Source of the DNA: Arcticibacter pallidicorallinus
GTDB taxonomy: Bacteria > Bacteroidota > Bacteroidia > Sphingobacteriales > Sphingobacteriaceae
Assembly: GCF_003002875.1 (NCBI RefSeq)
Contig: NZ_PVTH01000009.1
Coordinates: 1-64,000, forward strand
Reading direction: 5' to 3'
DNA: 64,000 bases
Part shown: piece by piece, positions 19,896 to 31,045 of the stretch
Numbering within the stretch: position 1 is the stretch's first letter
Layout: each line of letters begins with the position of its first letter
Program-made: the position numbers and the translations under genes
The notes under the pieces: model-generated
The model's input: the letters and a program-made list of their open reading frames with translations, nothing else
Database searches by the model: none
Told to the model about the DNA's origin: nothing

Positions 19896-20318
19896 TTATT
19901 CTCCCCAACCGGTGACCAGTATTGCTCTTTCGCCGCCGTAATCCCGATGTTCGCAAAGGTAAATACCCTGCCATGTACCCAGAGCAAGCCTGCCGTTGCG
20001 TATTGGAATACTGACAGAAGATCCCAGTAGAGAAGCCTTCAGGTGCGCAGGCATATCATCAGAGCCTTCATCGGTATGTAAATAATCGGGATCATTCTCA
20101 GGCACGCTCTTGTTAAAGAACATTTCGAAGTCGCGACGCACCGTGGGGTCTGCGTTTTCATTGATACTTAGTGAGGCGGAGGTGTGCTGTATAAATACAA
20201 AACACATTCCAACGCCGATATCAGCGATCTCCGGAGACGCACGAACAATGTCCTGCGTAATCAGGTGAAAGCCTCTGGAACGCGGCTTCAGTTTCAAAGC
20301 GTGCTGAAATATTTTCAT
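19896..20318 (-). CDS. YjbQ / UPF0047 family protein
   Basis: The 140-residue protein matches YjbQ throughout, with [24 protein letters not shown] near residue 38, the [19 protein letters not shown] segment, and the terminal [13 protein letters not shown]. Members have weak thiamine-phosphate synthase activity in E. coli, and the conserved His/Glu cluster suggests a metal-dependent enzyme. The cellular role is unsettled. It is encoded 40 bases upstream of the rluF-like gene on the same strand. Confidence 0.92.
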
Positions 20319-20383
20319 TTTTAGTCGATTGTCTGTTCGTAATTTTAAGCCAAAAGTATAGATTTAAAGAATAAAATCTACCA

Positions 20384-21613
20384 ATGAGCCCCAAGCCCGA
20401 AGCTAAGTCCAATAACATTGTCATCCTTATAATTGTTGCCGCGCTAGGCTATTTCGTCGATATTTATGATCTCGTCATATTCTCCATTGTACGGGTCCAG
20501 AGTTTCCGCGATATCGGGATTCCGGAGGCCGATATGCGTCTGGATGGCGAGTATGTTCTGAATATGCAGATGGGAGGACTGCTGATCGGCGGGATTTTAT
20601 GGGGAATAATAGGCGACAAGTTCGGCCGGATCAAGGTCCTCTTTGGTTCAATCCTTTTGTACTCATTAGCCAATATTGCAAATGGCTTCGTAAACGACAT
20701 TCATAGTTATGCGCTGATCCGTTTCATTGCTGGTATTGGGCTTGCCGGCGAACTCGGTGCCGGGATCACCCTCGTCAGCGAGAGTATGAGTAAAGAAAAG
20801 AGAGGGTATGGCACAATGATCGTTGCCGGGATTGGCGTACTCGGGGCAATTGCCGCTTACTACATTTCGGAGCATTTCAGCTGGCGCCAGTCGTATTTCG
20901 TGGGAGGAGGCATCGGGCTCTTACTTCTTGTACTGAGGGTTGGTACGTTTGAATCGGGTATGTTCAAACATACAGCTTCAAAAAGCATCAAAAAAGGGGA
21001 TATATGGATGCTTTTCGCTTCCAGAGAACGACTGCTTCGTTATATATACTGCCTCCTTATTGGCCTGCCGATCTGGTTTGTTGTAGGAATTTTTGTGACG
21101 CAAGCTCCCGAGTTCGGTCAGGCATTAGGCGCTCAAACCATACTTAGCGCCGGTAAGGGGATCATGTTCACGTATATAGGGATTTCAGCGGGCGATATTA
21201 TTGCAGGGCTTCTTGCTCAGGTAAGCAAGTCCAGGAAGCTGGCCGTTTTCATCTTTCAGGTGATGATCCTTACCAGCTCGGTGTGGTATTTGAGCAGTAA
21301 GGGTATTACCGAGCAGGAATTTCATTGGCTGGCTCTATTTATGGGTCTTGCTGTCGGCTATTGGGCTACCTTTGTAACGATCGCATCTGAGCAGTTCGGC
21401 ACGAACCTGCGCGCTACAGTGACTACCACGGCACCGAACTTTGTGCGCGGTGCGTTGATACCCAGCACACTTCTGTTTGAGTATTTTGTACACCGATTTT
21501 CTATCATCACCGCCGGCTACATCATGATATTTCTTTTAACAGGTATCGCAATGCTGGCACTTACACAACTCAAAGAAAGCTTCAACAAGGACCTTGACTA
21601 TTTCGAAGAATAA
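20384..21613 (+). CDS. MFS transporter
   Basis: The 409-residue protein has about 12 transmembrane helices. The MFS motif GIIGDKFGRIKVLFGS follows helix 2, and an RFIAGIGLAGELGAGITLVSE segment resembles the aromatic-acid/organic-anion symporter branch. An acidic residue lies in the first helix (ALGYFVDIYDLVIF). The substrate cannot be read from the sequence. It is divergent from the YjbQ gene across 65 bases. Confidence 0.88.
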   Translation: MSPKPEAKSNNIVILIIVAALGYFVDIYDLVIFSIVRVQSFRDIGIPEADMRLDGEYVLNMQMGGLLIGGILWGIIGDKFGRIKVLFGSILLYSLANIANGFVNDIHSYALIRFIAGIGLAGELGAGITLVSESMSKEKRGYGTMIVAGIGVLGAIAAYYISEHFSWRQSYFVGGGIGLLLLVLRVGTFESGMFKHTASKSIKKGDIWMLFASRERLLRYIYCLLIGLPIWFVVGIFVTQAPEFGQALGAQTILSAGKGIMFTYIGISAGDIIAGLLAQVSKSRKLAVFIFQVMILTSSVWYLSSKGITEQEFHWLALFMGLAVGYWATFVTIASEQFGTNLRATVTTTAPNFVRGALIPSTLLFEYFVHRFSIITAGYIMIFLLTGIAMLALTQLKESFNKDLDYFEE

Positions 21614-21675
21614 GTAAGAGACCAGGTAATTGAGTTTCCGGGAAGCAAAGCTGTTGCCGCTTGAGAGAGAGACTC

Positions 21676-21741
21676 CTATTGTTTGGAAGGATGACTGCTA
21701 TCGTTTGGAAGAATAACTACTAACGTTTGGAAGAAAACGAT
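21676..21741. repeat. Three tandem copies of a 22-bp unit
   Basis: GTTTGGAAG recurs at 21681, 21703 and 21725 with an exact 22-base period. The units are 21676-21697, 21698-21719 and 21720-21741. The third unit encodes the last residues and stop codon of the leftward gene beginning at 22772, so the other two lie just past its stop. The units share about 14-17 of 22 positions. Confidence 0.7.
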
Positions 21742-22772
21742 ACGCGTTTTTTTGACTGAAATTTACTGCTGTCTTCAATTTGGTCCATTCCTTGCCTCGT
21801 AGCCGTTTTCCCCGATTTCATGGTTGGTTTCATCCTTCCTGATGAGTTGCGCATCATACCTGCGTTGACTGCTTTTAGCTTTCCCTTACTCCGTTTCTCT
21901 TTTCTTCGCTCATGCTCCCGCAGCAGCCTGTTACCTTCATAACACATGTTATTAATGGATGCGCCTCTTACTTGCTGCGCCGCGTCGAGTTCCATATTCA
22001 CAGGTCTTGCTGGGTATTCTCCCGGTTCTTCCGCGTGGAAAGCAGCGATAATCGAACATGGACTGAACTCCTTGCTGTTGAGCAATACATAGCCTTCTTC
22101 CATTCGGGTTTCACTATAAGCCAGCAACGATACGCTGAGCATCAGCAGCTGATCGGGTTCCGGCCGGGTTTCAAAGCGGATCTCCCGGGCCTCAAGCTGA
22201 GCCTGCCAACGAAACTCCACATCTTTCACTTCCAGATATTCGTAGTACTCCTTCCTGAAATTGAAGCCGATCAGGCTGAAACGGAGCCGGTATTTGCTCA
22301 CTGGTTTACTGATGCTTAGCGGCACCCTCAGGTCGGTTTTGGCGTTCAAAGCCCCCATGAACACGCTTAGGCGCCCCTCTTCATCCCGCTCCACTCGCTG
22401 ACTGACCTGCAGCACTTCGCTCATCCGGCTTCGGATGTTGAAGTCCATCCCGATGAGGCTTTCCAGGTCCGCATCATGCAAGTCACGCTGACCAACGCTT
22501 CCGCGTAAGCTATTGCGAAGACCCCGGTACACCAGCTGCGTGCTGCGGCTCACCGCCTCGCCGTCCCGGTGCACATAGGCCGGCTCAAAGGCCTGCCTTA
22601 TCACTGCCGCCGTGGTACTTGAAAGACCGAACTCGGTGGAGGCCTGGATGCTTGCGCTGGTCTGTTCGAATTTGCGGGGTTTCCCCTGGATGATGTTCAT
22701 TTCGCGGTAGCCGCGATATACAACGGAACCTGCCTTGCCGCGAACGATTCCTTTCTTGTCTACTTTTGCCAT
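21720..22772 (-). CDS. DUF6266-like hypothetical protein
   Basis: The 350-residue cytoplasmic protein begins MAKVDKKGIVRGKAGSVVYR and continues with GKPRKFEQTSASIQASTEFG, which resembles the opening of DUF6266-type proteins of Sphingobacteriaceae, a family with no known role. The middle (about 150-250) is predicted beta-rich. The C-terminal 70 residues are strongly basic (KRSKGKLKAVN, KSGKTATRQG, KKRVSFSSKR), suggesting nucleic-acid contact. The coding sequence is visibly more GC-rich than its flanks and stands alone between gaps, hinting at horizontal acquisition. I cannot assign a function. Confidence 0.65.
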   Translation of the reverse strand: MAKVDKKGIVRGKAGSVVYRGYREMNIIQGKPRKFEQTSASIQASTEFGLSSTTAAVIRQAFEPAYVHRDGEAVSRSTQLVYRGLRNSLRGSVGQRDLHDADLESLIGMDFNIRSRMSEVLQVSQRVERDEEGRLSVFMGALNAKTDLRVPLSISKPVSKYRLRFSLIGFNFRKEYYEYLEVKDVEFRWQAQLEAREIRFETRPEPDQLLMLSVSLLAYSETRMEEGYVLLNSKEFSPCSIIAAFHAEEPGEYPARPVNMELDAAQQVRGASINNMCYEGNRLLREHERRKEKRSKGKLKAVNAGMMRNSSGRMKPTMKSGKTATRQGMDQIEDSSKFQSKKRVSFSSKR

Positions 22773-23099
22773 AACCTTGTTTGATTTTTAAAACAAGGTA
22801 ATCCGGCGGAACGCAGATGACGATTTTTTCGCCAAAATCGACAAAATTTTATGGATTTTTTAAAATTCCGTACCTCAAAAGCAGTCAAGCATCGCAGAGA
22901 CTGAGCTTCGACCTTCTTTATATGAAGAGCTATATGTGCAGCTGAAAGGCAGTAATACGTCCGACTTTAAGCTACTCAGGTCGGACTTATCACGGAACAA
23001 TGAGTGCCCATTATCGGCTGTATATAACAGCCGTCTAACGAAACATCAACAGCAGTATCGGCACATAACTAGTTGAATATCTATATGCATAATTTTCTT
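22773..23099. other. Gene-free stretch with three hairpins
   Basis: No supported reading frame lies here. Three perfect 7-bp stems are present: CGATTTT/AAAATCG at 22821-22840, GTCCGAC/GTCGGAC at 22959-22986 with a 14-base loop, and CGGCTGT/ACAGCCG at 23015-23033 with a 5-base loop. None is followed by a long T run. They could be parts of a leader, a small RNA or chance structures. Confidence 0.4.
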
Positions 23100-23125
23100 A
23101 TGTATGTAAAAAAAACATATATTCG
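23100..23125 (+). promoter_or_regulatory. Candidate PadR operator overlapping the padR promoter
   Basis: ATGTATGT (23100-23107) and ACATATAT (23115-23122) form an 8-bp palindrome with one mismatch around seven A residues. The core ATGT-N7-ACAT is one base short of the ATGT-N8-ACAT operator known for PadR proteins. A TAnnTTTG-like box (TATATTCG) occupies 23118-23125, only three bases from the padR start codon, so binding would block transcription of its own operon. Confidence 0.5.
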
Positions 23126-23128
23126 CAT

Positions 23129-23470
23129 ATGGCAATATCCAGTAGTATGCTCAAGGGAAGTTTGCAAACCATTCTCTTAAATATGTTGCATGAAAACGGG
23201 AAAATGTATGGTTATGAGATTACTCAGAAAGTAAAGGATATCACCAAGGGCGATATAAAACTTACTGAAGGTGCAATCTATCCCTCTTTGCATAAGCTTG
23301 TGGCAGATGGATTACTCGTAACACATACCGAGACGTATGAAAACCGCGTACGTAAGTATTATGCGCTGACTGCTGCCGGCGAGGCTGAGCTGGCCAACAA
23401 ATTGAAGGAGGCCGAGAGCTTCATCGGCAATTTGCAGATGCTTTTAAACCTTAAACCTAACCTGTCATGA
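23129..23470 (+). CDS. PadR-family transcriptional regulator
   Basis: The 113-residue protein is a typical short PadR winged helix. It has LLNMLHENGKMYGYEITQKV, the LTEGAIYPSLHKLVADGLL recognition helix and wing, then YYALTAAGEAEL, and a C-terminal dimerisation helix. PadR proteins repress their own operon and respond to small ligands or to a partner protein. Its TGA stop overlaps the ATG of the next gene (ATGA), so the two are translationally coupled. Confidence 0.93.
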   Translation: MAISSSMLKGSLQTILLNMLHENGKMYGYEITQKVKDITKGDIKLTEGAIYPSLHKLVADGLLVTHTETYENRVRKYYALTAAGEAELANKLKEAESFIGNLQMLLNLKPNLS

Positions 23471-26400
23471 ACTTGACCGAACATCAACTGTCTAACATTC
23501 GCAGTTATCTTAAAAAGGTAAATACCGCTCCGGAGCTATTTGACGAGATGTATGACCACGTTTTAAGTGCGCTCGAGGTCGAGCCCCAGAACATACCCTT
23601 TGATATGAAACTTGTGGAACGTTTGGCGGTGTCTGGATTTCGGAAGATGGTTCAAACGGACTCGGATACCAGCAGATACAAGCGCTTGAACGCTCTGATA
23701 GGCATCATGCTATTCATAATAGCGAGTTTTACATATTGGTTGACAATGGAACCTACCGTGAGTTTCTGGGATTGTGGAGAGTTCATCGCCGCCGCCTACA
23801 AGTTACAAGTTGGACACCAACCAGGGGCACCTTTGTTTCTCATGCTTGGCAAGCTGTTCTCGATACTTTCTTTAGGTGACGCGTCAAAAGTAGCCTATTG
23901 GGTTAACATGAGTTCCGTTGTGGCAAGTGGCGCCACGGTTATGTTCTTGTTCTGGACGATAACTTCGATTGGGACGAGAATCCACAAGCATGTAAAGCAG
24001 CCCTCGGCCAGCATTTTGATCGCCGGGATTGTTGGCTCACTCGCTTTTGCTTTCTCAGACACTTTCTGGTTCTCTGCTGTGGAGGCAGAGGTTTATGCTA
24101 TGTCGACTTTGTTTACTGCCATAGTATTTTGGGCGGCACTAAAATGGGAGAAATCGGGTGAAGACCGCTGGCTTGTGTTTATATCGTTTATGATTGGTCT
24201 CTCGATAGGTATACATCTTTTGAGCCTTTTGGTGATTCCCGCGGTGGCGTTGGTTTATTACTTCAGGAAGCAGCCTCGTCCGCGGCTGAGGGGTATTTTC
24301 ATCGCTTTTTTGACCGGTTGTGTTCTGATAGGAATGGTTCAATACGGAATCGTTCAGTATCTCGTGCTGGCAGCAGCAAAGTCAGACTTGCTATTTGTGA
24401 ACAGTTTTAATGCTCCCTTCGGTTCCGGAGCAGTTGTATTCCTTGGACTTATAGGGGCAGCTATAACTGCCGGGCTGGTCATTTCGGTAAAGCGAAAACT
24501 TTACCTTTTGAATTTAGGGCTGGTATGCCTGACATTTGTACTATTCGGTTACAGTTCATACTTTATGATCTATATCCGCGCGAATGCTAAACCCAATATA
24601 AACCTTAGTAACCCTGACAACGCTTTTTCTCTATATGAATACCTTGGCCGCTCCGGATATGGAACAACACCTCTCTTGTATGGCCGGACATTTGACGCGA
24701 AGCCGGTCCGCCACGAAGAACGAGGCTTTCTTTACCGAAAAAATAACGAAAAGTATGAGGTCTCGGGATCTAGGTATAAGACAGAGTATGACAAGAATCT
24801 ACTCTTTCCCAGAACGCATAGTCAGAAACCAGGCCACGCAGATTTTTACCGGCACTGGCTTGCCCTGGAGGAAGGGCGGAGCCCCGGTATGTTAGATAAT
24901 GCCAGCTTCTTCAGCTCATGGCAATTGGGGTTTATGTATTGGAGATATTTTTTCTGGAATTTTGCCGGCCGGCAGAATGATATTCAAGGGCAGGGGAACG
25001 TACTTGAAGGAAACTGGATCTCGGGAATTCAACCGTTAGATGCATTGAGGCTTGGCAGCCAAACCGGCCTGCCGCCGAGTATAAAAGAAAACAAAGCACA
25101 CAATATTTTTTATGGACTGCCCTTCATTATTGGCCTTGCCGGAATTGTATGGCTTTATAGAAAGAGCAAACCTGATTTCCTTACAATTCTGAGTCTATTT
25201 CTCCTGACCGGAATGGGTATTGTATTATATCTCAATCAGGATCCTCTTCAGGTAAGAGAACGGGATTACGCTTACGTAGGATCTTTTTATGCTTTCGCTA
25301 TATTCATCGGCTTCGGCTTTATGGCAGTTAAAGGTGCTTTAAGCAGGGTCGGTCCAGCAAAGGCGTCTTTCGCCATGGCCACCTTAATATGCATTTTGAG
25401 TGCTCCGGGACTGATGCTAAAAGAAGGTTGGGATGACCATAACCGATCAGATAAATTTACCGCTTTGCATTGGGCGAAAAACTATCTAAATTCTTGCGCA
25501 CCAAATGCGATCTTGTTCACTAACGCAGATAACGACACCTTTCCGCTATGGTACGCTCAGGAAGTCGAAGGAATCCGGACTGACGTACGCGTAGTGTGTT
25601 TGCAGTTTTTGGCGGACGACGCTTATATCAGCCAGATGAAAAAAGGGTCGGGTCTTTCAGCGCCGCTTCCTATAAGTATGGATCGTTCGATTTATATGGA
25701 CGGTGTTCGGGATTATTTTCCGTTTGTCGATTATGGAATTACGGACAGCGTGAACCTTCATGATCTTGTGGCGGTAATGAAGTCGGACGCGAAAGAGGAC
25801 AAGATACAGATGTCGGACGGGTCATTCATCAACTTTTTGCCGACAAAGAAGTTGAGGCTGGGAGTTGATAAGCAAATTTTGCTTGACACCGAGACGCTTA
25901 CATATGACGAAATTTCCAGGACGACCAATATGGAATGGACTTTTAATAAAGAATTCGCGACCAAGGCAGACCTGGTTCTCTTTGACATCCTGGTCAGCAA
26001 TGAATGGAAACGTCCGATTTATTTCGCGACATCAGTGTCAGAAGACACCTATATGGGATTGGATGATTATCTCCATCTGGAGGGCTATGCATACAGACTG
26101 CTGCCTCTCGTCCCTGTACCCGGAGTCAAAGCAGACAAATCGGAACGGACGCATTCAGATGTCATGTACTCAAACTTCATGACGAAGTTCGAGTTTTCTT
26201 CTTATTCGGAAGCCTCTTACGCCGATCCAGAGACACGCAGGGTGATCGGTGGGACATGGAACTTAACAAATACGCTTGCCGCCAATCTAATCGAGGAAGG
26301 GAAAAACGTCGAGGCAGAGGCCGTAATGGAAAAAAGCCTCAGAGAATTACCTGTTGATAATTATGCTATCATAGACACCTTGAACAGAATAATGACCGTA

Positions 26401-26664
26401 AAGAATCTTTATGCGGGTAGTCGAATAGATAAGGCTAGTGAAATAGCAGAAGATACCGTTCAGTTTCTTGACGCTGAGCTCACTTATATCTCATCCCTGT
26501 CTCCCAACCAACAGCGAGGTTCAATACAAGACATCCGCATAGGCATGTACGTATTGCAGTCGCTCCAGATATTGGCAGCAGAGAATAAGCAGGCGCAACT
26601 TTCTTCATTGATTGAAAGGAACATGGAATGGCTGAGTCAGAAGTTTTCGTTAACCGATGTATAG
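23467..26664 (+). CDS. DUF2723 membrane glycosyltransferase with PadR-partner N-terminal domain
   Basis: Residues about 70-640 form a multi-span DUF2723 domain, the Bacteroidota protein O-mannosyltransferase-like family of GT-C fold. The signature TMEPTVSFWDCGEFIAAAYK holds the catalytic-type Asp-Cys-Gly-Glu turn, and QVGHQPGAPLFLMLG follows. The remaining C-terminal region (about 640-1065) is soluble and extracytoplasmic. The first 65 residues (MNLTEHQLSNIRSYLKKV, then ELFDEMYDHVLSALE) are not part of normal DUF2723 proteins. They resemble the small helical domain (DUF1700/HAAS-like) at the start of membrane proteins encoded after PadR regulators. The 4-base overlap with padR supports one functional unit. 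The enzyme should glycosylate envelope proteins from a lipid donor. Confidence 0.82.
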   Translation: MNLTEHQLSNIRSYLKKVNTAPELFDEMYDHVLSALEVEPQNIPFDMKLVERLAVSGFRKMVQTDSDTSRYKRLNALIGIMLFIIASFTYWLTMEPTVSFWDCGEFIAAAYKLQVGHQPGAPLFLMLGKLFSILSLGDASKVAYWVNMSSVVASGATVMFLFWTITSIGTRIHKHVKQPSASILIAGIVGSLAFAFSDTFWFSAVEAEVYAMSTLFTAIVFWAALKWEKSGEDRWLVFISFMIGLSIGIHLLSLLVIPAVALVYYFRKQPRPRLRGIFIAFLTGCVLIGMVQYGIVQYLVLAAAKSDLLFVNSFNAPFGSGAVVFLGLIGAAITAGLVISVKRKLYLLNLGLVCLTFVLFGYSSYFMIYIRANAKPNINLSNPDNAFSLYEYLGRSGYGTTPLLYGRTFDAKPVRHEERGFLYRKNNEKYEVSGSRYKTEYDKNLLFPRTHSQKPGHADFYRHWLALEEGRSPGMLDNASFFSSWQLGFMYWRYFFWNFAGRQNDIQGQGNVLEGNWISGIQPLDALRLGSQTGLPPSIKENKAHNIFYGLPFIIGLAGIVWLYRKSKPDFLTILSLFLLTGMGIVLYLNQDPLQVRERDYAYVGSFYAFAIFIGFGFMAVKGALSRVGPAKASFAMATLICILSAPGLMLKEGWDDHNRSDKFTALHWAKNYLNSCAPNAILFTNADNDTFPLWYAQEVEGIRTDVRVVCLQFLADDAYISQMKKGSGLSAPLPISMDRSIYMDGVRDYFPFVDYGITDSVNLHDLVAVMKSDAKEDKIQMSDGSFINFLPTKKLRLGVDKQILLDTETLTYDEISRTTNMEWTFNKEFATKADLVLFDILVSNEWKRPIYFATSVSEDTYMGLDDYLHLEGYAYRLLPLVPVPGVKADKSERTHSDVMYSNFMTKFEFSSYSEASYADPETRRVIGGTWNLTNTLAANLIEEGKNVEAEAVMEKSLRELPVDNYAIIDTLNRIMTVKNLYAGSRIDKASEIAEDTVQFLDAELTYISSLSPNQQRGSIQDIRIGMYVLQSLQILAAENKQAQLSSLIERNMEWLSQKFSLTDV

Positions 26665-26912
26665 GCATCTGCGGCGCGTCCACCCTCGCTTATCCCTGTG
26701 ACTTTGATCTCTGCTGATAAAAACGTATCTTTGCATCAAACGGTATATTTCGAGCATTTTCTATGTAATCTACATCGATAACCTACGGTTATCCCCCCAC
26801 TTCCGCCACATTGTTGTTAAACCGTTGCAACAGTGGAAGTTCATAAGCGATACAGTTTCTACTCTGATATGACGCGGTTACATTTTTATGCTTTTAACTT
26901 AAATTGATTAGT

Positions 26913-27116
26913 ATGGCTAAGTCTCAGGCAACCTTCATGAAAAAGCAATTAGAAAAAACAAGACAAAAGAGGAAGGAAGAAAAAGAGCTACGTAAACAAG
27001 AGCGTCAGCAAAACTCAACAGGTGGAAGTCTGGAAAGTATGCTCGCTTATGTTAATGAATTCGGTGAGATTGTTTCAACTCCGCCGGAGAATATCAAACC
27101 TCCGGTTGTTGAATAA
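26913..27116 (+). CDS. Small basic coiled-coil protein (67 aa), conserved in Bacteroidota
   Basis: The protein begins MAKSQATFMKKQLEKTRQKR and has a charged helix of about 40 residues followed by a Gly-rich hinge and the tail LAYVNEFGEIVSTPPENIKPP. I recall similar small proteins in many Bacteroidota, often near cold-shock genes, without a defined function. I chose ATG 26913 over 26904 because family members start MAKSQ. The leader contains a small perfect hairpin GATAACC-TAC-GGTTATC at 26777-26793. Confidence 0.75.
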   Translation: MAKSQATFMKKQLEKTRQKRKEEKELRKQERQQNSTGGSLESMLAYVNEFGEIVSTPPENIKPPVVE

Positions 27117-27442
27117 AGATGGACAGTCGGCACATCCGGCAGCCAGATCGACCTGACGTGATCGAAACAAGTATTTGAATAACGAGTCCCATCGTAAGTC
27201 GCGATTTCCGGAGCAACATGCGTGATCTATGCATAAAACTGTGCAATAAAGGTCGTCCTAATCAGGGAAGAACCTCGGTATCACCAGCGACAGCTTCGGC
27301 TTATACCTGCTCTTAATAGTAGTTTCCGTATCTATTGTGTTATATATGGGTAGTGGATAAACAGTATGGATAAAGTAATACCCTTATATTTGTGAGTATC
27401 CAAATACCAGGTTAACCTTACATTATAGCTATACACAACCAT
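27117..27442 (+). other. Gene-free leader with a TAnnTTTG box
   Basis: No supported gene was found. A perfect Bacteroidota -7 box TATATTTG lies at 27385-27392, 51 bases upstream of the response regulator, but no TTTG sits at the matching -33 distance. The rest shows no strong repeat or hairpin. Confidence 0.4.
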
Positions 27443-28093
27443 ATGAAGTCCATTAAAGTCTTTTTAGTTGAAGACCATAACATCGTGCGAAACGGGATTC
27501 GCACGCTTTTGGAGAGGCAGACAGACATTGAGATTGCCGGGGAGGCGGAAACGGTTAACGCAGCTCTTGAAAAACTCAGAACAGGAATCCAGGTCAATAT
27601 TATCTTATCTGATATCAATATGCCTGACCGGAGTGGTCTGGATCTAATCGATATCGTCACTTCCGAATTCCCGAATATCAAGGTCATCATGCTGACCATG
27701 TTGGATCATGAAAATTACATCAAACAGTCTATAAGAGCTGGAGCCAGCGGTTATTTATTGAAAAATATCGACATTGAGCAGATGCTTTTCGCCATCAGGC
27801 ATATCGCTTTGGGCGGAAGATATATAAGCTCCGAGATAGTTTTTGAGATGTTTAAGAAGCAACTAAGTTCGCCGCCTGAGCTGGGCGCGGGCGAGTTGGT
27901 AGAACTGTCGCAAAGGGAAGAAGAAGTTCTGCATCTGATAGCCGACGGATTTACGAATCAGGAAATTGCCGATAAGCTATTCACCAGTCGCAGGACAGTT
28001 GAAGGACATCGCCAGAACTTACTGGAAAAGACCCGCACCAAGAATACGGCTACACTTATCAGATATGCCATACGCAATAGCATTATTAACTAG
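27443..28093 (+). CDS. NarL/FixJ-family response regulator (REC + LuxR HTH)
   Basis: The 216-residue protein has a receiver domain at 1-120 with the acidic pair in LVEDHN and the phospho-acceptor Asp57 in ILSDINMPDRSG, and the conserved Lys equivalent is not obvious in the GASGYLLKN segment that follows. Residues about 150-212 form a LuxR-type HTH (LSQREEEVLHLIADGFTNQEIADKLF). Its cognate kinase is not adjacent. A second, output-less receiver follows 128 bases later. Confidence 0.92.
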   Translation: MKSIKVFLVEDHNIVRNGIRTLLERQTDIEIAGEAETVNAALEKLRTGIQVNIILSDINMPDRSGLDLIDIVTSEFPNIKVIMLTMLDHENYIKQSIRAGASGYLLKNIDIEQMLFAIRHIALGGRYISSEIVFEMFKKQLSSPPELGAGELVELSQREEEVLHLIADGFTNQEIADKLFTSRRTVEGHRQNLLEKTRTKNTATLIRYAIRNSIIN

Positions 28094-28221
28094 CTTCTTA
28101 CCAGGTAGTTACTACGTGAATTTATGTCTTTTTCCGCTTTTTTTGACTAGTTTGCTTTATTACCTTTATGGTGGATCAGTCGCAATTCAACTACATTAAC
28201 CTTTACCATAAAAACATAGCG

Positions 28222-28602
28222 ATGAAAGTGAAAAGGAAGATTTTAGTTTTAGACGATGACAGGTATATTCTCGATGTCCTCGACGAAGCACTGACCTATG
28301 AGGAGTTTGAAGTAAAAACAGTAACGGATATCAAGTCATTTTTTAGCTTAATGACAGAGTACCAGCCTAACCTTGTTTTAATTGATTACTTGCTCCAGGG
28401 AATCAATGGTGGGGAGGTTTGCCACCAAATAAAAAGCGCAAACTCTACACGGGAAGTACCGGTAATCATGATGTCGGCCTATCCAAAGGTTTTCGAATCA
28501 CTTGGAACGTACGGTTGCGACGCATTCATCGCTAAGCCCTTTGATCTGTATATGCTGATTGACAAGGTAAAGAGCCACATGCCGCTCGGACATGCAGGCT
28601 AA
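28222..28602 (+). CDS. Single-domain response regulator
   Basis: From ATG 28222 the protein has 126 residues and consists of a receiver domain only: the acidic pocket in LVLDDDR, Asp55 in LVLIDYLLQG, and the Lys in FIAKPFD. Without an output domain it probably relays phosphate or binds a partner. The longer frame from 28168 would add 18 residues with no receiver-like features, so I rejected it. It ends six bases from the convergent glycosyltransferase gene. Confidence 0.85.
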   Translation: MKVKRKILVLDDDRYILDVLDEALTYEEFEVKTVTDIKSFFSLMTEYQPNLVLIDYLLQGINGGEVCHQIKSANSTREVPVIMMSAYPKVFESLGTYGCDAFIAKPFDLYMLIDKVKSHMPLGHAG

Positions 28603-28608
28603 GTATAA

Positions 28609-29886
28609 TCAGGCTGCCTTCGTTTTCGCTTTGGCAGGTAGCAGGTCATGTTGAGAGGAAGTCATCACGTCCCGGTATTGATCTCTGATTAAGGAAGCGA
28701 CCTTTTGCCACGTGAACAGGGTGTTTACCCTCTTGATCGATTCGATACGCATCAGTTGACGCATATGTGAATCAGAAAGTATCATGCCGAGCGATTCCGC
28801 TAGCGCTTTGGGATTCTCCGGGGGGACCAATAAACCTGTATTACCATGGTCGACGCTGTATTTAATTCCGCCAACGTTTGATCCGATCACTGGAGTACCG
28901 CAGGCCATCGATTCAAGTGGAGTAATTCCGAACGGTTCATACCAGGGGGTTGTAACAAAAACATCTGCGGCAGAGTAATAGTATTTAAGAAGATTTCTTC
29001 CCTTTCTGCCAACGAATGTAACAGCATGATCCATGTTTTCTTCTGAAACGATGGATTTTAGCCTGTCTAGTTCGGCATGATCAGCTGTATCAGGGTCTTC
29101 GAAATCGCCTCCTACCACCAGAAGCCGTACCGGGATAGCCGCCTTATAGAGCAGCGAAGTTGCCCTGATTACGTTATCTATGCCTTTTCTCGCCACCATA
29201 CGCCCCAGCTGCAAGATTATCTTTTCCTCGGGGTTAAGTCCCAGTTTCTTTCTCGAGTAAGATTTACTGATTGGCTGGAACTCTTTTTTACTGAAACCGC
29301 AGGGTACAACAGCAACCCGATTTTCGGGCGCCATATAATAAGTTAAAAGGTCATGCTTGTCCTGGGGGCACTCGGCAATAATGACACTGGCAGCCTTTAC
29401 GATTTCTTTCTCTATTGAGATTCGTATTGCCGGGAACTGGTCATCATCGTGCTGATAGAGCTTCCGGATATATCCCAGGGCATGGAAGGTGATCACAAAG
29501 GGAACACCCAGAATTTCTTTGATCTCTGATGCTACCCAACCAGACATCCAGAAGTTGGCATGGATTAGCTCATAGCACAACTTTTCCCGATGCATGAATC
29601 GGAGCATATTATCCCTGAATTCGGGCATGTGCTGCCATAGCTCTTCTTTCCGCAGAGGGTATGGTCGACCTGCATTTACATGGATGACGCGTACGCCTGG
29701 TAGCCAAAAAATAATCTTCTCAAGTTCTGGGTCATCGTTTCTCGTGTAAATATCTATTTCATAGCCCAAGGCCGCCAATTGCCTGGCTAACTCTGCTACG
29801 TAAACATTTTGACCACCGCTATCGACCCCGCCGATTGTAGCAAGCGGAGATGCATGTTCACTTATAAACGCGATCTTCGGTTTCAT
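28609..29886 (-). CDS. GT4-family glycosyltransferase
   Basis: The 425-residue cytoplasmic enzyme has the GT-B fold. The donor-side start GGVDSGGQNVYVAELARQL is typical of the sucrose-phosphate synthase/MshA branch. The C-terminal half has LQLGRMVARKGIDN and the EX7E motif EPFGITPLE, then GTPVIGSNVGG. It would transfer a sugar from a nucleotide donor with retention. Its start lies 29 bases inside the preceding gene, so the two are translated together. The acceptor is unknown, and a stress-related glucoside or sucrose-like product is possible. Confidence 0.88.
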   Translation of the reverse strand: MKPKIAFISEHASPLATIGGVDSGGQNVYVAELARQLAALGYEIDIYTRNDDPELEKIIFWLPGVRVIHVNAGRPYPLRKEELWQHMPEFRDNMLRFMHREKLCYELIHANFWMSGWVASEIKEILGVPFVITFHALGYIRKLYQHDDDQFPAIRISIEKEIVKAASVIIAECPQDKHDLLTYYMAPENRVAVVPCGFSKKEFQPISKSYSRKKLGLNPEEKIILQLGRMVARKGIDNVIRATSLLYKAAIPVRLLVVGGDFEDPDTADHAELDRLKSIVSEENMDHAVTFVGRKGRNLLKYYYSAADVFVTTPWYEPFGITPLESMACGTPVIGSNVGGIKYSVDHGNTGLLVPPENPKALAESLGMILSDSHMRQLMRIESIKRVNTLFTWQKVASLIRDQYRDVMTSSQHDLLPAKAKTKAA

Positions 29887-31045
29887 AGGAAATGTCTTTT
29901 TGTGATATTTTTTCTCTTAATGCAGTCGCCAGAGGTTGATACAGTATCCTGTTGGGGGTGCCGGAGAGATTGGTATTGTCCCAAAGTCCAGAGCCGTGCC
30001 AGTAACTCGGATCGTTCCAATCGGGCCGGTCAATAATAGGGTATAGGCATACACCCCAGAAGGGGATTTCATCAGGAATTAACTCCAGCTCTTTCCAGAC
30101 GAAGTTGAACCAGTTAGGCCTGTCCTGTCCAGAATGACTCGTCTCGCTCAAGATCATCGGCTTTTTGTAGCGTAAATACGCTTCGCTCAGCAGGTCACAC
30201 AGGGGGCGCCATCTTTCGTCGTGTTCCAGGTTCGCCCATGGGAGAAATTCTTTAAATCCGGTGACCCATTGGTTGTTATAATAAAAATTGAGTCCTAAAA
30301 CATCCAGGAGCTCCGGAGTTCCACCGAGTTCCGGACAGATTCTCCCGCAGAGCATATCAATCGCCTGATATTGAAATTCGTGCTGCATCGCGGCCTCGAA
30401 TACTTGCTCATCCGTCGCATTCAAAGGAGGAACGATATTGACAAGGGGCTCCGTTGCAAGGATGACGATGCGATTGTCGAGCGCCTTCAGGGCTTTTGCC
30501 GCGGCGATATAGGCTTTCATGAGTACATACTTGGCATTCCAACCCTGATTCTTGTAATATGGAGCAGTTTCACCTGCATCTGCGCATAGCCATGATATGA
30601 AGCTTACCTCGTTGATAGGCGTCAAAATCAGAGGCTTAGTGGACTCGGTCTTTTCTAAACAGTACCGGGCAAAAGCAAGGCTCAGCGATACAAGCCTTTC
30701 CTCAAAATGCGGATGGAACGGGTCCAGATCATCCGGGAAACCGAAATGACAGATATCCCAGACTTGCTGGATTCCGGTCTCAGCAGCAGCCTCTATCATC
30801 AAGCCGGCGATACTAAAATCATATTGATAAGGACGAATTTCTACCTGGCTCCAGCGAAGGCCCTCACGGACGGTTTTGATGTCAAAGTCTCTCAGCATGG
30901 CGTAGTCATTCCCGAGCTGTTCCAGATGACCCGTAATTTTCATAAAGTCGATTCGCTCCCCCTTTAGATTTAAGAGGTCGGCGCATTCGAAACCGGCCAT
31001 CAGATATGATCCGAAGGGATTATTATCAATAGACTTGAATTCCAT
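29858..31045 (-). CDS. GH1-like clan GH-A glycoside hydrolase
   Basis: The 395-residue protein is a TIM-barrel of clan GH-A. The acid/base Glu is in LTPINEVSFI (an NE motif) and the nucleophile Glu is in MILSETSHSG. It lacks a signal peptide, so it acts in the cytoplasm. The family is usually annotated as family 1 glycosylhydrolase or beta-galactosidase-like, often next to a GT4 gene as here. I chose ATG 31045 since the longer frame starts with TTG. Overlap of 29 bases with the GT4 gene indicates a tight functional pair, perhaps making and breaking one compatible-solute-like glycoside. Confidence 0.8.
   Translation of the reverse strand: MEFKSIDNNPFGSYLMAGFECADLLNLKGERIDFMKITGHLEQLGNDYAMLRDFDIKTVREGLRWSQVEIRPYQYDFSIAGLMIEAAAETGIQQVWDICHFGFPDDLDPFHPHFEERLVSLSLAFARYCLEKTESTKPLILTPINEVSFISWLCADAGETAPYYKNQGWNAKYVLMKAYIAAAKALKALDNRIVILATEPLVNIVPPLNATDEQVFEAAMQHEFQYQAIDMLCGRICPELGGTPELLDVLGLNFYYNNQWVTGFKEFLPWANLEHDERWRPLCDLLSEAYLRYKKPMILSETSHSGQDRPNWFNFVWKELELIPDEIPFWGVCLYPIIDRPDWNDPSYWHGSGLWDNTNLSGTPNRILYQPLATALREKISQKDISYETEDRVYK

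Follow-up and report, generated by a model that had tools for sequence, protein, structure and literature searches.

We analyzed a window of 64,000 nucleotides from Arcticibacter pallidicorallinus (contig NZ_PVTH01000009.1, positions 1 to 64,000, forward strand; source genome 4.1 Mb), in which a padR regulator gene runs directly into a gene for a large membrane protein (Table 1). This protein starts with a short helical domain and continues as a transferase related to protein O-mannosyltransferases. An earlier note on this DNA had described the four-base overlap of the two genes and proposed a PadR-partner domain in front of a DUF2723-type O-mannosyltransferase body. The overlap is present as an ATGA sequence, and both parts of the proposed fusion were borne out by the comparisons below. 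Based on these data, we consider it fairly probable that the two genes form a HAAS-like/PadR dyad with a protein O-mannosyltransferase-like enzyme as its membrane part. Such an arrangement suggests that an enzyme likely to act in protein glycosylation carries the means of its own control.

Table 1. Features of the padR-transferase locus; positions are those of the window.
Feature	Position	Strand	Description and basis
Palindromic site TGCATAATTTTCTTATGTA, probable PadR operator	23086-23104	.	24 bases upstream of the padR start
padR	23129-23470	+	113 amino acids, winged-helix regulator; PF03551, 74.8 bits (cut-off 27), 5.6e-21
Fused gene (HAAS-like domain and transferase)	23467-26664	+	Open reading frame, 1065 amino acids
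ATGA stop/start overlap of padR and fused gene, 4 bases	23467-23470	+	Sequence; 4-base overlap shared by 20/20 fused loci
N-terminal HAAS-like PadR-partner domain, residues 1-70	23467-23676	+	Three helices; E27, D30 and H31 invariant
GT-C membrane core, residues 70-655	23674-25431	+	Structure comparison, Z 19-22 to STT3, PglB and PMT
PF11028 match within the GT-C core	23770-24276	+	Pfam
WDCGE, residues 101-105	23767-23781	+	Aligns with GDSGE in the human TMEM260 sequence
C-terminal part, residues 656-1065: mixed domain, then helical stretch 897-1060	25432-26661	+	Predicted secondary structure

Among 399 genomes of the family, 76 gave a match to a profile built from four fused examples. Seventeen of these carried the domain on frames of about 1070 residues, the same fusion as in the window, and the rest on frames of 148-311 residues, mostly around 225. 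Small PadR-partner proteins were retrieved from the fused proteins' profile in this way with E-values down to 1.3e-12, and a padR gene was located upstream on the same strand in all 30 fetched family loci (17 fused, 13 small). In two loci (L106, L107), a further partner gene sits between padR and the domain gene. Searching the phylum with the 30-row domain profile gave matches in 18 of 395 genomes. A same-strand padR was found at 18 of the 21 fetched loci, some of which overlap one another and one of which is the window itself; in L157, it lies after the partner. The three loci devoid of padR (L159, L161, L162) appear to be chance matches, and no transferase-length frame apart from that of the window was present among the 21.

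The reverse search, with the window PadR as query, yielded matches in 31 of 121 family genomes, including 28 close PadR places (E <= 1.8e-25), of which the 26 with a locus (L181-L206) were examined. All 26 were followed by a domain-bearing frame (weakest match 1.2e-3, L206), comprising seven fused transferases and 19 small proteins. Two to four transmembrane (TM) segments were predicted for 18 of these small partners and one for the remaining protein, which is encoded by a short frame. Four more distant PadRs (L207-L210) were paired with a partner of another kind. Here, the L209 partner matched Pfam HAAS (8.2e-10), L210 fell just short (25.8 bits, cut-off 27) and the L207 partner matched NCBIfam perm_prefix_1 (2e-7). 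The Pfam scan of L208 started inside the domain and was uninformative; its full frame was later used as a bridge sequence. Overall, residues 1-65 of the fused protein are a three-helix domain that also starts small membrane proteins encoded behind PadR across the Bacteroidota.

In five loci (L106, L107, L108, L112, L114), a single padR is followed by a tandem of two or three partner genes, and one PadR may serve several membrane partners. In L105 and L186 (G002:C23), an in-frame TAA breaks the small partner gene inside the domain region, while padR stays open.

Residues 1-70 were modelled as three helices (5-18, 22-38 and 47-61) with a mean predicted local distance difference test score (pLDDT) of 86, based on four sequences. 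Across the 30 domain rows (17 fused and 13 small-partner loci), E27, D30 and H31 are identical, and the 17 fused rows additionally share M1, R12, E37 and F58. The first predicted TM segment (TM1) begins near residue 76, preceded by a stretch (residues 60-78) with four K/R and two D/E. The N-termini of STT3 and PglB face the cytoplasm. Because residues 64-71 aligned with the first residues of the STT3 and PglB chains in the structure comparison, we infer that the N-terminal domain is cytoplasmic, i.e. on the side of PadR. Residues 1-71 alone matched no Pfam or NCBIfam model. Best E-values of the domain profile against PDB sequences were 0.35 and 0.29, Foldseek returned nothing at E <= 0.001, and structure comparison gave generic helical matches (best Z 5.5) with no HAAS structure among the matches listed.

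According to the accessible part of PMC11237479, HAAS domains consist of three helices, the third bearing a GxP motif, invariably lie next to PadR and are fused to many membrane parts; the same text proposes HAAS-PadR pairs as signalling dyads and as an alternative to two-component systems. For comparison, we collected 11 PadR-partner domains from Firmicutes plasmids, two of them in unannotated stretches; among eight plasmid matches tried as sources, L166 (Spirosoma) and L171 (Cupriavidus) were left out of the profile comparison. Using hhalign, the Bacteroidota domain (49 rows) scored 25.8 against the permease-prefix-1 kind, above all of 200 column shuffles (maximum 17.1). With two Bacteroidota bridge sequences the score was 27.1 (shuffle maximum 18.2), the run including the L208 bridge having reported merge errors while still giving scores. 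The two Firmicutes kinds, permease-prefix-1 and DUF1700, scored 23.2 against each other. The core common to the domain and HAAS is the E..xH stretch of helix 2. The DUF1700/HAAS likeness suggested in the earlier note was supported, with caveats, for the permease-prefix-1 kind but not for the DUF1700 kind. The Pfam HAAS models PF22564 and PF08006 matched none of 30 domain members (E up to 10), nor the window's fused protein, whole or N-terminus. An assignment to HAAS_TM (PF08006) was rejected, the model having matched in only 1 of 148 phylum genomes, below cut-off, at a locus (L144) whose open reading frames showed no evident PadR pair. As the domain resembles the permease-prefix-1 kind in its profile but lacks both GxP and a Pfam match, we term it HAAS-like and did not file it as HAAS.

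The body matches PF11028, 'Protein O-mannosyl-transferase TMEM260-like', which we take to be the former DUF2723, with 229.4 bits (cut-off 24.2; 3.3e-68; residues 102-270). Its sole sequence relative in the PDB is human TMEM260 (9rql; 6.2e-13, with a profile 5.7e-16), the alignment covering the beginning of the GT-C core as well as a section of the C-terminal half, around residues 608-729. A body model from 30 aligned sequences reached a pLDDT of 81 and a predicted template modelling score of 0.78, with low confidence at residues 101-120. Since comparison of this model with the structures of STT3, PglB and PMT gave Z 19-22, the modelled core is that of a GT-C transferase; 9rql was not among the structure matches listed.

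In GT-C enzymes, an acidic side chain in the first outer loop takes part in catalysis. Here, D102 and E105 are kept in all 17 fused rows, as is the R597-Y601 stretch. Intactness was assessed on 113 body columns conserved to at least 97% in 89 unfused proteins, leaving out the duplicates L116, L117 and L128 and the partial L020. Of these columns, 106 are identical in all 17 fused proteins, which rules out a decayed enzyme. The seven varying columns are W101 (Y in 5), S150 (A in 12), Y720 (F in 8) and K171, L192, W235 and F266 (2-5 rows each). The fused transferase is therefore apparently intact. By sequence, it is probably a protein O-mannosyltransferase, with mannose as the putative sugar and protein as the putative acceptor. 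W101 adjoins the presumed catalytic D102, and residues 101, 150 and 720 are constant or almost constant in the 89 unfused enzymes.

Next, we compared 110 body loci, consisting of 80 kept out of 267 relatives and 30 from genome searches. Twenty of them, in 17 genomes, are fused, and each of the 20 has padR with the 4-base overlap. The N-terminal domain is absent from the other 90, which rules out a general extension of the enzyme family, the objection that the earlier note had itself raised along with a possible lack of similarity to PadR-partner domains; the latter objection did not hold either, such similarity being present. For none of these 90 unfused loci was a padR of this kind present in the fetched DNA, which extends less than 500 bases upstream in seven of them. 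An artefact of a wrong start or frame was likewise ruled out, given that 17 genomes share the domain together with its start and the ATGA overlap. It might be argued that the domain is unrelated to PadR and helps the enzyme to be translated or inserted into the membrane, the adjacency reflecting translational coupling, as ATGA coupling is common. We regard this as highly improbable, since this domain is also found at the start of unrelated small membrane proteins encoded behind PadR and most enzyme loci (90/110) manage without it.

All 17 fused genomes also hold an unfused copy. In the source genome this is a PF11028 transferase of 1008 amino acids (L002, G000:C10 28056-31094) with 50% identity in the aligned body, no N-terminal domain and no adjacent padR. 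A genome of the same genus (G066) encodes two unfused transferases (L132, L133) and neither the fusion nor this padR. In a tree of 48 full-length rows (17 fused genomes and 31 of the 90 unfused loci), the fused bodies fall on one side of one branch (Shimodaira-Hasegawa-like approximate likelihood ratio test, SH-aLRT, 97). This tree replaced an earlier one of 53 rows (SH-aLRT 98), in which five rows were less than a third filled. The fused bodies adjoin unfused Pedobacter proteins, inside a paralogue group with unfused deeper members. In the PadR tree, likewise, a single branch separates the regulators of fused loci from the others (95/89; 96% of 200 bootstrap trees). Because both trees place the fused units in this way, a single fusion event is the simplest reading of their history, and joint inheritance of the regulator and the fused enzyme seems likely.

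Upstream of padR, the palindrome TACATAATTTTCTTATGTA was found with at most three mismatches to the consensus in all 17 fused loci. At small-partner loci, it occurred with at most two mismatches in 8 of 13 and at most five in 12 of 13, leaving L102 with none. Upstream of unfused transferases, the best match had at least five mismatches at all 88 loci used (of 90), and among 600 shuffled operator regions three reached four mismatches and none fewer. The source genome contains the window's site once exactly and once with three mismatches, compared to five matches of a backward control pattern. Based on these patterns, the palindrome is a probable PadR operator, and PadR probably acts on its own operon. 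A wide PadR regulon was rejected on the basis of the genome scan with its single exact site and one site with three mismatches, a scan that divergent sites would escape. A second PadR of another kind is encoded elsewhere in the genome (G000:C3 353265-353477, L004; PF03551, 2.5e-19).

Several points weigh against the proposed dyad. Taken by themselves, the fused rows bear only a weak likeness to HAAS: with bridges they scored 20.2 against the permease-prefix-1 kind (shuffle maximum 18.6), and without bridges 18.55, a score given without shuffle comparison. The whole domain showed no likeness to the DUF1700 kind (11.1, equalled by 29 of 200 shuffles). The GxP motif of the third helix is absent in all 30 domain rows, and the FGG or similar that most small partners have at this position has been lost in the fused rows. 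The operator consensus was drawn from the same sites that it scores, and better controls than these sites are provided by the unfused loci and by the scan of the genome. Finally, the body model is weak around the catalytic loop (pLDDT 57-58 at residues 101-105).

Some of these points would also fit a history in which the fusion simply brought another copy of the transferase under the control of an ordinary PadR promoter with autoregulation, the domain being a relic or an aid to folding or dimerisation with no part in signalling. The domain has neither FGG nor GxP, it diverges faster than the transferase body (mean identity among fused rows 46% vs 67%), and a fusion that probably arose once could be a historical accident. 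However, E27, D30, H31, E37, R12 and F58 have remained identical in all 17 otherwise diverged rows, padR has been retained at every one of the 20 fused loci, and the PadR tree, too, keeps the fused loci on one side of one branch. We therefore consider such a by-product rather unlikely.

According to the dyad interpretation, the small membrane protein usual in such pairs would be replaced by a complete TMEM260-like GT-C transferase. PadR would bind the palindrome before its own gene and repress the operon, by analogy with Listeria, in which a PadR represses the operon that it shares with a DUF1700 gene; the accessible part of that study reports 151-fold (lltR) and 118-fold (lmo0600) increases in an lltR mutant (PMC6624303). 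Owing to the ATGA overlap, PadR and the enzyme would be made together, and the presumably cytoplasmic domain right before TM1 would dock PadR at the membrane to an extent varying with the amount or state of the enzyme. The docking could relieve or strengthen repression, the sequence being compatible with either direction; for a dyad with VanZ as sensor, the part of the publication available to us proposes release of PadR from the HAAS domain (PMC12419801). In this manner, the cell may adjust its second transferase copy, with the unfused copy elsewhere in the genome having neither padR nor the site.

A stronger form of this explanation would make the transferase a trigger enzyme, whose catalytic state (idle, or with either the lipid-sugar donor or the acceptor bound) is the signal passed via TM1 to the domain and PadR, giving feedback on glycosylation capacity. 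The domain abuts TM1, the transferase core is conserved, and published dyads, as far as their accessible text goes, take the membrane part as sensor, VanZ in one case (PMC12419801). On the other hand, small partners use the same domain without any enzyme, so that the signal could be membrane state or protein amount, and we put this proposal forward as tentative. If true, a single enzyme-regulator pair would let the cell gauge and tune its capacity for protein glycosylation.

Regarding the surroundings of the pair, the gene upstream of padR (window 21720-22772, minus strand) has a relative with 41.8% identity in A. svalbardensis (L007), where it lies about 3-4 kb before the fused gene. Apart from this match, a comparison of the window with L006, L007 and L013 showed no further shared neighbours beyond the pair within 5 kb (open reading frames of at least 80 amino acids). 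A small lysine-rich open frame (window 26915-27117, plus strand, about 67 codons by eye) separates the fused gene from a gene for a response regulator at 27443. Nothing in Rfam matched in window 20000-30000, and promoter-like and terminator-like scans were at shuffle level (7 vs 9.4 and 6 vs 4.1, respectively).

The PF11028 family was detected in all 148 Bacteroidota genomes searched (83/83 genera) and in 1 of 14 control genomes, Bacteroides ihuae. According to the accessible text of a 2025 review, the transferase of the Bacteroidota-wide conserved O-glycan core, in which mannose comes first, is undiscovered, and homologues of eukaryotic O-mannosylation should be sought (PMC12871550). The phyletic distribution supports, short of proof, the PF11028 family as a candidate for this role, and a transferase copy with its own regulator offers a handle for asking whether it is the missing transferase. 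A fusion of a PadR-partner domain with a transferase was not found described in the openly accessible literature (exclusive of preprints and most subscription papers), and no bacterial PadR-mannosyltransferase pair was among the matches listed, judged by title and abstract start. The locus would place an enzyme of the protein O-mannosyltransferase class in the sensor position of a PadR dyad. It also provides a definition of a PadR-partner domain of Bacteroidota unmatched here by Pfam and NCBIfam.

Compared to the HAAS-PadR dyads (PF22564, PF08006, perm_prefix_1), as far as described in the available text of PMC11237479, the window shares a short three-helix N-terminal domain of a membrane protein, directly behind a stand-alone PadR, and a profile similar to the permease-prefix-1 kind. 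It differs in the missing Pfam match and GxP motif and in its membrane part, a GT-C transferase; the fusions named in that text are PspC, LiaI-LiaF, Toastrack, VanZ, FtsX/MacB, FtsW/RodA, pentapeptide repeats and uncharacterised parts with 2, 4 or 6 TM segments. In the dyad of PMC12419801, as its accessible part has it, VanZ takes the sensor place, whereas in the window a transferase stands there. The small Bacteroidota PadR partners (about 220 amino acids, an unnamed family) have the N-terminal domain, the PadR subfamily and the operator type in common with the fused protein, as well as the overlap in most cases, but usually 2-4 predicted TM segments and no enzyme. Human TMEM260 (9rql) is a protein O-mannosyltransferase of CAZy family GT117 (PMC11292533); unlike it, the window enzyme is bacterial, exceeds the 729-residue chain by about 340 residues and carries a PadR-partner domain.

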